Shown in pieces: positions 41,510-47,725 of a DNA stretch of 64,000 nt. Each line of letters opens with the position of its first letter. Position 1 is the first letter of the stretch. The DNA is from Lactococcus allomyrinae. GTDB taxonomy: Bacteria > Bacillota > Bacilli > Lactobacillales > Streptococcaceae. The stretch lies in assembly GCF_003627095.1 (NCBI RefSeq), contig NZ_CP032627.1:310001-374000 (forward strand), in the 5' to 3' direction. Below the pieces are notes generated by a model. That model was not told the origin of the DNA and did not search any database. It saw only the letters and a program-made list of their open reading frames with translations. A program made the position numbers and the translations under genes.

Positions 41510-41753
41510 AATAAACTATTAGAAAGGAGCGTTCGTGAGGACGCTCCTTCTCTTGTGTGGATTTTCTGACGATAGATAGTCAGGTTAAATATAAGGTTGG
41601 AGTGCTCTTCATATCTTACAATTGAGTTCGATGCGCTTGAAATTAGTGAAAATAGATAATTTTCATAATTTCAGGGTAAGCGCTCCTCGCATCTTATAAC
41701 TGAGTTCGGAAGGCTAGAAACTTCCTCATATCTTAAAGAAAAGGAGATAAAAT
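41510..41753 (+). promoter_or_regulatory. Leader of the nusA operon with hairpin and palindromic elements
   Basis: A roughly 240-nt leader begins with the stable hairpin AAGGAGCG-(10 nt)-CGCTCCTT plus TCTCTT, which could be an attenuator. NusA operons are often self-regulated by termination in this region; that is inference here. The hairpin is followed by short palindromic family units (41605-41745), with borders CATATCTTACAATTGAGTTCG and GCATCTTATAACTGAGTTCG and the hairpin 41633-41683. Confidence 0.55.
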
Positions 41754-42227
41754 ATGGAAGAAATCGTAGAAGTTGTTGAAGATTTCATCACACCTCATAT
41801 TCCTAAACCGTTTAAACTTTTTGCAGTTGAGTGGGGGAAACTTGGTGGTGATATGGTTTTAAGTATTTTGGTGGATAAAGAAGGCGGTATCGAGATTGAT
41901 GAAACGGCTGAGTTGAGTGAGTTGATTTCCCCTTTGTTAGACCAAATCAAGCCAGACCCTTTTCCTAAAGAAGGTTATATGCTTGAAGTTGCTAGTCCAG
42001 GAGCTGAACGTCCTTTAAGAAAAGCCGAGCACTTCAAAGGAGCGATTGGTGAGTATATTTTTGTCAAACTCTATCAAAAGCTTGATGGAGAAAAAGAATT
42101 TGCAGGAGATTTAACGAGTTTTGATGGAGAAAATCTGGTGCTTGATGTACTTGATAAGACACGTCATAAATCTGTTGAAATTCCGCTATCTAGTGTGGCT
42201 AAAGCGCAGACGATGGTTAAATTTTGA
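41754..42227 (+). CDS. rimP: Ribosome maturation factor RimP
   Basis: The 157-residue protein helps late 30S assembly. The N-domain contains [16 protein letters not shown] strands and [20 protein letters not shown], the family signature, near residues 78-95, and the C-domain is an SH3-like barrel. AAAGGAG precedes the ATG. First gene of the operon. Confidence 0.95.
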
Positions 42228-42253
42228 TTGAGCTTTATCATTTGGTAATATAA

Positions 42254-42470
42254 TTGTGCTTGCCCTTTTTGAAAGCTATGAAAAAAGATAAAATGTTCCA
42301 ATGAGCTTTGCTCATTTCCTATTTTTCAGCTTTTAGAACAATCGGGCTTACATCTTAAAATTGAGTTCGGAGCACTTGAAATAATGAAAAATAGGAAATT
42401 ACAGGTTCGTACATCGCATGGTTCTGGAATTTATCATTTTCATTTATTTCAGGGAGCGCTCCTTACATCT
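42254..42470. repeat. Two palindromic elements between rimP and nusA
   Basis: Unit a (about 42254-42350) has the tip AATGAGC-TTT-GCTCATT. Unit b (about 42370-42462) has arms GAGCACTTGAAATAATGAAAA and its complement, with an inner tip CGTAC-ATC-GCATG. They are separated by the border ACATCTTAAAATTGAGTTCGG and end with ACATCTTAAAT. Each is an imperfect hairpin of roughly 90 nt that would be present in the operon mRNA. Confidence 0.7.
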
Positions 42471-42493
42471 TAAATCGAAAGAGAGAAATATAA

Positions 42494-44394: not shown

Positions 44395-44490
44395 GTTTGA
44401 TTTGGAAGTGAGTAAAAAGGGTAAATTTTTTAAAAATTATTATTTATCATTTTTACTATTTCCAAGCAGGCGGGCTCACATCTTAAAGGA
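44395..44490. repeat. Palindromic element before infB
   Basis: GGAAGTGAGTAAAAAGGGTAAA (about 44407) pairs imperfectly with TTTATCATTTTTACTATTTCC (about 44442-44462) around an AT-rich tip. The downstream border GGGCTCACATCTTAAA runs directly into the infB ribosome site AAAGGAGGA. It is one unit of the operon's palindromic family. Confidence 0.6.
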
Positions 44491-44498
44491 GGACTAAA

Positions 44499-47375
44499 TT
44501 GTCTGATAAGAAACGTATTAACCAAATTGCAAAAGAAACAGGACTGAAAAATGCTGAACTTGTAAATGCTGCAAAGCATCTGGGCTTTGATGTTAAGTCA
44601 CATTCAAGTTCAGTCACAGAAGACCAAGCAGCTAAAATCATTGAAAGCGTAAAAACAGGCGTGAAACCGGCTGCAAAATCTACTGACAAACCTGTCAGCA
44701 CACCTAAAAAAGCTGTCAGTACTGACAAAAAGAAAACGGATGGCCCACGTACATTTGCTGGTAAAGCTATCGTTGAAGACCCTGCAATCTTGGCACGAAT
44801 TAAAGCAAAAGAAGAAGCAGAAAAAGCAGCTAAATCTGTAGAACATAAATCTGTTGACACAGTTGTAGCTGCTGAAAATGGAAAATCTACTGACAAAGAA
44901 TTGTCAGCCAAAAAATCTGCTGACAAAATTTCGTCAGAGAAGCAATCTATTGACAAAAAACTGTCAGTAGAACCAGAAGTGAAAACTGAGCCTAAAGTGG
45001 CGGAAAAACCAGAAATAAAATCTGAAACAGTGACATCTAAAAAAGAAACAAAAGTGGACAAAGGAGTTGCTGACAAAAAGGAGCCTGTCATTACTGACGA
45101 AAAGAAAAAACCATTGAATCACAAACCAAGAATTCAAATCAAAGTTATAAAACGTGCAGAAGATATCAAAAAAGAACAAGCTGCTGCCCGTCCTGAAAAG
45201 AAACATTCTGACAAAAAACCATTTGATAAAAAACGTGGGAATGACAGAAATAATCGTACTGACAATCGTCATTCGGGGCAAGGTAATCAAGGCGGAAATC
45301 GTTTTGACAAGAATCGTCCAGCTACTCAAGGACAAAATCGTGATAAAACTTCTTCGACGACTTCAACAGCAGAGGTCTTTACACCAGCAGCAGGAGGCAA
45401 AAATAACCGTCGTTCTCGTGACCGTGACAAATCTAAGACTTCGTCACACGATAATACGCAAGACGGTAACCGTAAGGGTGGCCCACTTCGCGTCAATGAT
45501 AATCGTAATCAAGTGCGTAATGCGCGTAATTCTAACTGGAATGCAGGTAAGAATAGACGTGGCGGACGTAATCAACAATCCATACCAGCGACCCAACGTA
45601 AATTCCATGAATTGCCAGAATCGGTGGAATATGAAATCGGAATGAACGTGCAAGACCTTGCAAAATTGCTTAAACGTGAATCAGCAGAAATCATTAAAAA
45701 ATTGTTCATGATGGGTACGATGGTTAACCAAAACCAAAGTCTTGACCAAGAAACAATTGAATTAATTTTGATGGATTATGGTGTTGAGGCTGTTCAAAAA
45801 GTAGAAGAAGATAAATCAGATATCGAACGTCTGTTTGTTGAAGAAGGTTATCTCGACGAAGATAAAATGGTTGAACGTCCAGCGGTTGTTACAATTATGG
45901 GTCACGTTGATCACGGTAAGACAACATTGCTTGACCGGTTCCGTGAATCTCGTGTTACTGAAGGCGAAGCTGGTGGTATTACACAACATATTGGTGCTTA
46001 CCAAATTACAACAAAGGGCAAGAAAATCACATTCCTCGATACGCCAGGGCATGAGGCTTTCACAAGTATGCGTGCGCGTGGCGCTTCTGTTACTGACATT
46101 ACAATCCTTGTTGTAGCAGCCGATGATGGTGTTATGCCTCAAACCATTGAAGCAATTAATCACTCAAAAGCTGCCGGTGTGCCAATCATTGTTGCAATCA
46201 ACAAAATTGATAAACCAGGGGCAAACCCACAACGTGTGATTCAAGAACTTGCAGAACACGGTGTTATGCCTCAGTCATGGGGCGGAGAGTCTGAATTTGT
46301 CGAAATCTCAGCCAAATTCAACCAAAACCTTGATGAATTGCTTGATACAGTGCTTCTTGTTGCTGAAATGCAAGAACTCAAAGCTGACCCAACGGTTCGT
46401 GCCATTGGTACAGTAGTTGAAGCTAGACTTGACCAAGGTAAGGGAGCAATCGCTACACTCTTAGTTCAACAAGGAACACTTCACATTCAAGACCCGATCG
46501 TTGTCGGAAATACTTACGGTCGTGTCCGTACGATGACAAATGACCTTGGTCGCCGTATCAAAGAAGCCGCTCCATCAACACCTATTGAATTGACTGGACT
46601 TTCTGATGTGCCACAAGCTGGTGACCATTTTGCGGTCTTTGAAGATGAGAAATCAGCACGTAATGCTGGGGAAGAACGTGCAAAACGCGCCCAACTCATC
46701 AAACGCCAAAGTACACGTCGTGTTAATCTTGATAATCTCTTTGATACACTCAAAGAAGGTCAAACAAAATCAGTTAATATTATTATCAAAGCCGATGTGC
46801 AAGGTTCTGCTGAAGCACTTGCTGCTTCACTTCAAAAAATTGAAGTCGAAGGGGTAAAAGTGGATATCGTCCACTCTGCTGTTGGTGCAATTAGCGAATC
46901 TGATATTTCACTTGCTGCGGCATCAAATGCGATTATCATTGGTTTCAACGTGCGTCCAACAGGTCTTGCTCGTGAACAAGCGGCTCATGAAGAAGTAGAT
47001 ATTCGTTTGCATAGTATCATCTATAAAGTCATTGAAGAAGTTGAAACTGCCATGCGTGGTATGCTTGATCCAGAATTCAAAGAAGAAATCATTGGTGAAG
47101 CAATTGTTCGTGAAACATTCAACGTTTCTAAAGTTGGTACGATTGCTGGATTTATGGTTATCCGTGGTAAAGTAGCACGCGATGCCTCTGTTCGCGTGAT
47201 TCGTGATGGAGTTGTCATTCATGATGGTGCTATCGCTAGCTTGAAGCATTTCAAAGATGACGTCAAAGAAGTTGGAAATGCACAAGAAGGTGGTTTGATG
47301 GTTGAAAACTTCAATGATGTTGCCATTGATGATACATTTGAAGTCTACAAAATGGTTGAAATCGAACGGAAATAA
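44499..47375 (+). CDS. infB: Translation initiation factor IF-2
   Basis: The 958-residue GTPase brings initiator tRNA to the ribosome. A TTG start follows AAAGGAGGA. The N-terminal 55 residues are the IF2N domain; about 60-370 are a disordered Lys/Asp/Ser-rich region; a second IF2N-like segment precedes the G domain ([14 protein letters not shown] near 469, [18 protein letters not shown]). C-terminal domains II-IV follow. The N-terminal region is rich in STDK/SADK/SIDKKLS units encoded by many octamer variants (CTGACAAA, CTGTCAGC, CTGTCAGT). Confidence 0.97.
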
Positions 47376-47380
47376 TAAGA

Positions 47381-47725
47381 TGTGAGAAAGGCTCGTTTAG
47401 AAATAATGAAAAATAGGAAAATGTGGAGATGAGCGCAGCTCATTGGAACATTTTATCATTTTTCACTTATTTCTAGCCTTACGAACTCAGTTATAAGATG
47501 TGAGAGGCGCTTAGTCTGAAATGATAAAAAATAGGGAAATACAGGTTCGTGCGCTGCACGGTTCTGATTTCATCATTTTTTACTCATTTCAAGCGACCCG
47601 AACTCAGTTAAATATGGTGTAAAAAAGGCTCAATCAAAACGGAACAGAAATAGGAAGATTTTTGAGTCTGAGCTTGCACAGATTCAAAATTTTATCTTTT
47701 TTGATTTTATCCTTCTGGACTCAAT
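47381..47725. repeat. Three palindromic elements between infB and rbfA
   Basis: Units lie at about 47388-47481 (tip ATGAGC-GCA-GCTCAT), 47503-47599 (tip CGTGC-GCT-GCACG) and 47626-47720. The borders read CGAACTCAGTTATAAGATGTGAG, the reverse complement of those upstream of infB, so these copies are in the opposite orientation. All would be transcribed in the operon mRNA. Confidence 0.7.

Follow-up and report, generated by a model that had tools for sequence, protein, structure and literature searches.

What are the large imperfect palindromes that crowd the rimP-nusA-infB-rbfA operon of Lactococcus allomyrinae, and how did they come to lie there? The operon is part of the window, that is the whole 64,000-nt stretch of DNA that was analysed, and a first-pass annotation had described the palindromes as a repeat family packed into it. 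A covariance model (R1) bears this out and resolves eight hairpin units of ~120 nt in the operon, one of them a remnant. R1 was built from 24 units of the same genome, some of them from the window, so these match it by construction; in the windowed search, E-values of the window units ranged from 1.5e-24 to 1.3e-4. Three operon units (41686-41734, 42237-42356 and 47495-47623) were detected in the genome-wide R1 search and the others in the window search.

Hairpin units of the operon

Upstream of infB, every unit reads in the sense direction (+ strand). On the 5' side of rimP, a shortened unit (41608..41695, 84 bits) is followed by a remnant (41686..41734, 38.9 bits) that adjoins the rimP Shine-Dalgarno sequence on its 5' side. 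The repeat previously placed at 41605-41745 as one unit is thus present, and is really this pair. Between rimP and nusA, a unit with the tip AATGAGC-TTT-GCTCATT (42237..42356, 67.5 bits) has a 10-nt border in common with the next one (42347..42471, 95 bits). Farther on, a diverged unit (44374..44484, 37.9 bits), whose counterpart in the sister genome G060 carries a long insert, adjoins the infB Shine-Dalgarno sequence on its 5' side. Downstream of infB the units are flipped (- strand). Here, one unit has its right border on the infB stop codon (47377..47504, 134.7 bits), the next has borders in common with its neighbours on both sides (47495..47623, 105.3 bits), and a diverged antisense unit lies 5' of rbfA (47614..47740, 47.1 bits; with 44374-44484, one of the weaker R1 units of the window).

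The R1 strands agree with the earlier reading that orientation flips after infB. Two other points of that reading had to be revised: the units are mostly ~120 nt with common 10-nt borders rather than 50-100 bp, and the claim that every longer gap in the operon is filled fails at the nusA-ylxR gap (43643-43724), which contains no match. Holding 8 of 105 units, the operon is the densest 6.2-kb stretch genome-wide. A different, short palindrome (TGTCAGTACTGACA) occurs at 12 places in the window (2878-59782, up to 2 mismatches; 0.13 expected), also within infB, and similar sequence is found in other Lactococcus operons.

Unit architecture and distribution

Read in sense order, a unit consists of AAYTGAGTTCG, a variable outer stem, an inner stem that ends GAAAAAAGATAAA / TTTCCTATTTTTC and has a conserved internal loop, a tip that varies, a bulge of ~5 nt in the 3' arm and, last, the border CTCACATCTT. 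Both ends of a unit resemble CTCACATCTT in the same direction, that is, they are direct, and the left copies are often degenerate. At 28 of 33 junctions the border, exactly 10 nt, is common to both neighbours, and all but one of the 33 neighbour pairs are arranged head to tail. Some units contain extra modules of roughly 54-100 nt inside their arms. The idea that GNTATAAT is a duplicated target was dropped because its two copies often differ.

The first-pass annotation had proposed selection on structure, and both covariation of the stem and a comparison of arms support it. In alignment A1 (24 of 27 units, two of odd length and one duplicate omitted), 21 of 31 pairs display two-sided changes, a value reached by 3 of 500 shuffles, and covariation scores 0.482, whereas shuffles average 0.170 and sliding gives no more than 0.138; the structure was predicted from the same alignment, which favours pairing. 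An alignment-free test, in which units were selected by a 45-bit cut-off and length limits, compared each arm with its own partner: own arms paired at -17.2 and -18.8 kcal/mol, the best permutations at -15.6 and -14.2, and own partners beat all 5000 permutations in both classes (29 and 50 units). Folding z-scores lay below -2 in 66% and 72% of units, judged against mononucleotide shuffles only. On MAFFT alignments, RNAalifold predicted 0 pairs for the promoter class (A3, 29 units) and 15 for the others (A4, 39 units), results that we take as misalignments.

Genome-wide, the search yielded 105 distinct units scoring 32 bits or more, spread over 72 places, a lower bound, as 150 of 3699 first-look candidates were scored and more may exist. 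The set derives from 123 rows (120 from the genome search and 3 added), which reduce to 110 distinct units, 105 of them at or above 32 bits; the 72 places become 73 arrays once divided by strand, and the right border is readable in 93 of the 105 units. A covariance model followed by a genome-wide search had been suggested as a check, and the family was to be given up if neither further copies nor compensatory changes turned up; both are present.

The family extends well beyond this genome. At E ≤0.001, and counting the present genome, 248 of 295 Streptococcaceae genomes sampled have a match, as do 67 of 246 genomes of the order (including 36 from other families) and 3 of 299 of the phylum, namely the present genome, another Streptococcaceae genome and a weak match (3.7e-4). 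With 11-13 candidates scored per genome, these E-values are rough, and most weak matches were left unread. By eye, the architecture is retained in 19 loci of other families, three with a different central motif. The operon itself has matches in L. taiwanensis, L. cremoris and an unclassified Streptococcaceae MAG, and weak ones in four other named genomes. At 17 presumed Streptococcus loci, unit-like sequence lies between what by eye are rpsG and fusA. Upstream of xseA, likewise assigned by eye, units are found in G244, G093 and (read in reverse) G179 and are absent from 13 correctly oriented readable loci. Near-identical unit copies are present in G075 and G321. All 33 matches listed for G321 fall on one strand, most near contig ends (3-116 kb, 2.04 Mb and 2.31 Mb) and several, by eye, at gene 3' ends. 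One unit had no blastn match in plasmids and phages, and one pattern had none in viral contigs.

Gene starts and promoter halves

The gene adjoining the right border is in sense with the unit in 63 of 71 arrays. Of 73 arrays, 46 have an ORF start codon no more than 30 nt from the right border and 5 have one that close to the left end; random positions score 0.23 under the second of two ORF rules, which was adopted after miscalled starts had been seen. Most arrays (58 of 73) are co-directional with replication, whose boundaries we set by hand and with which GC skew agrees; in the fetched stretches, both the GC skew and the coding strand change over near 0.8 and 2.1 Mb. Of the 8 arrays beside genes opposed to replication, 7 follow the orientation of the gene.

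The sequence past the border divides the arrays into those with a -10 box (26), a Shine-Dalgarno sequence (23), neither (10) or other sequence (14). Half of the arrays with a -10 box (13 of 26) have their start codon 14-17 nt past the border and 6-9 nt past the -10, the spacing usual for leaderless transcripts, which suggests that leaderless transcripts may start at these arrays. In five of the ten arrays with neither element, AGAAAGGA lies to the left of the unit, and the hairpin separates it from the ATG. At another place, the unit at 742168-742293 separates a Shine-Dalgarno-like sequence from the start of a type II cas1.

Among the 93 single units inspected, 33 have a -10 box after the border, and a TTGACA-like -35 (at least 4 of 6 matches) lies 18 nt upstream in 32 of these 33, compared with 7 of the 60 others; the units are related, and the counts are not independent. 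The same arrangement appears in G060, with a -35 at 18 nt in 8 of 8 units against 1 of 7, although these are partly orthologous to our units and do not represent independent events (15 units were scored: 14 of 16 matches plus one neighbour added by hand, one cut-off match and one antisense match being omitted). Some copies thus appear, from motif spacing, to supply half of a promoter. One of this class lies within the window at 20686..20817 (+ strand, R1 102.5 bits) and is followed by GGTATAAT and ATG; the matched site in G060 has no R1 match but retains the border.

Downstream of the 73 arrays we collected 64 ORFs, some surely spurious (one lies inside infB), scanning 40 picked by eye (rimP, nusA, infB and others omitted) and then the other 24. 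A family was matched at E 1e-20 by 42 of the 64, many under the curated cut-off. We read 16 of these 42 as information-processing genes, with 9 of 27 in the hand-picked set and 7 of 15 in the remainder; these are plain counts, with no claim for or against enrichment.

Sister-genome sites and the nature of the element

Both flanks of 52 of the 73 arrays were located in the fetched stretches of G060; in the median, flanks are 95% identical (86.8-98.2). At 47 of these 52 matched sites, the two genomes differ by more than 15 nt in the distance between the flanks, partly through sequence other than units. In G060, 27 of the sites have an R1 match and 25 have none, yet a missing match does not equal absence, because some such sites visibly hold a unit with an insert, and 19 of the 25 keep the border. 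A second modular repeat (starting AAGTCAAGACTTATTCAGTG and ending near GCACGCACTTGCTTTGATAAAA) occupies several G060 loci (L160, L352, L358 and others) and is absent from our genome at those sites; once it is located inside a unit.

Individual sites display the differences directly. At 330686, G060 reads TTCATATCTT|GGTATAATTAACG and our genome CTCATATCTT|unit|GGTATAATTAATG. At 1047425, our genome has three units that are nearly identical (1-4 differences in 129) and G060 has none. Comparison of empty sites in a related strain, a further check suggested at the outset, shows that between rimP and nusA G060 has neither the units nor the border, a difference that either gain here or loss in G060 could produce. 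There the native 10-mer matches the border at only 6 of 10 positions, compared with 7 of 10 at 2384219 and 8 of 10 at 1687930 (breakpoints chosen by hand, and partly ambiguous). The right flank was matched for 20 promoter-class arrays, of which 16 have a qualifying -35 and -10 in both genomes and 4 fail in G060. The -35 hexamer differs in 12 of the 16 shared promoters, 10 by at least two bases and two by a single base, and the single-base differences need not each reflect another unit.

We put at about even the chance that the repeat is a small non-autonomous mobile element, which as a single strand would fold into a long imperfect hairpin, add itself 3' of a border-like sequence and be able to exchange promoter halves. 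A new unit would be placed directly 3' of sequence resembling its own right border, and therefore arrays would grow after CTCACATCTT. In the promoter class the border lies between the -35, in the 3' bulge of the unit, and the -10 outside it, so that an arriving unit would replace the -35 and leave the spacing unchanged. The mobile character suggested by the first-pass annotation is supported by the genome-wide copies and by the site differences from G060, though G060 may instead have lost the units.

The main rival holds that the repeats are old and immobile, and that arrays change only by homologous recombination among units, including those in DNA taken up from relatives. It is favoured by the border kept at most sites lacking an R1 match, and we regard it as a serious possibility that stays short of an even chance. 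Borders and stems would provide the homology, and site 2594191 looks as if a unit between two left ends had been lost. The first arrival of units at 2384219 or between rimP and nusA, where G060 has no unit or border, is left unexplained by recombination unless deletions occurred.

It is improbable that the repeat is a transcript-level element, acting in mRNA stability or processing and kept by host selection. Placement at gene starts, the sense bias, the orientation of arrays beside genes opposed to replication and the stem covariation would all suit such a role. Against it, promoter-class hairpins sit upstream of their own -10 box, antisense copies stand at gene ends (infB and, by eye, in G321) and some orthologous genes have no units. 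A MITE with the terminal inverted repeats and target duplication of a cut-and-paste (DDE) transposon would also be small, AT-rich and palindromic, but is very improbable given that the ends are direct, that the sites read, few of them clean, contain no clear target duplication, and that covariation extends over the whole stem.

Returning to the single-strand hairpin element, its moving enzyme may be encoded outside the present genome. The Y1 transposase domain of IS200/IS605 elements (PF01797) was not found in our genome, G060, G075, G321 or G430, although G075 and G321 hold near-identical unit copies; of the 8 other genomes tested, G096, G244, G179 and G424 have it. An inspection of the matches listed, which falls short of a systematic search, showed no long autonomous version. 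More tentatively, and with the odds somewhat against it, the repeat could represent an order-wide class of mobile elements that insert as single-strand hairpins at their own border, swap -35 halves while the promoter stays intact and are moved by an enzyme outside the known ones. If the mobile reading is right, a single repeat family would have remodelled the starts of genes in Lactococcus and its relatives among the Lactobacillales, with promoter parts exchanged naturally and the genes themselves left where they were.

The first-pass annotation knew of no matching named family, and our searches agree: Rfam gave no match at gathering score within the window, and no description appeared among the papers listed by searches of the open-licence PubMed Central literature, several of which matched far more papers than were listed. 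Eight loci run against Rfam at E up to 1 gave four matches, each under its own gathering score. Similarity to BOX averaged 17.5 for 72 units above 60 bits and 17.0 for shuffled BOX (with a provisional BOX sequence), a BOX primer pattern matched one contig, which was unrelated, and the boxA-boxB(n)-boxC order was seen in none of the units read, though some arms hold modules of roughly 54-100 nt.

In kind, the repeat resembles BOX of S. pneumoniae and the BOX-type elements of S. suis, which are likewise small, intergenic, modular hairpin repeats with many copies per genome. The paper on them describes BOX, RUP and SPRITE as nearly missing from other streptococci, except for BOX-related elements in S. 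suis (PMC3049150); unlike BOX, the present repeat matches most Streptococcaceae sampled. Correia elements of Neisseria, as covered there, are likewise small hairpin repeats able to create promoters, with 26-bp inverted repeats (PMC3049150) in contrast to the direct 10-mer ends here. Elements of the IS200/IS605 type and REP also form hairpins, and insertion beside a particular short sequence, with no duplication of the target, would be in keeping with them. The present hairpin is far longer than that of REP, and our genome lacks PF01797. Within Lactobacillales, EFAR of Enterococcus faecalis is also a small palindromic repeat, different in its ~170 bp and two hairpins.
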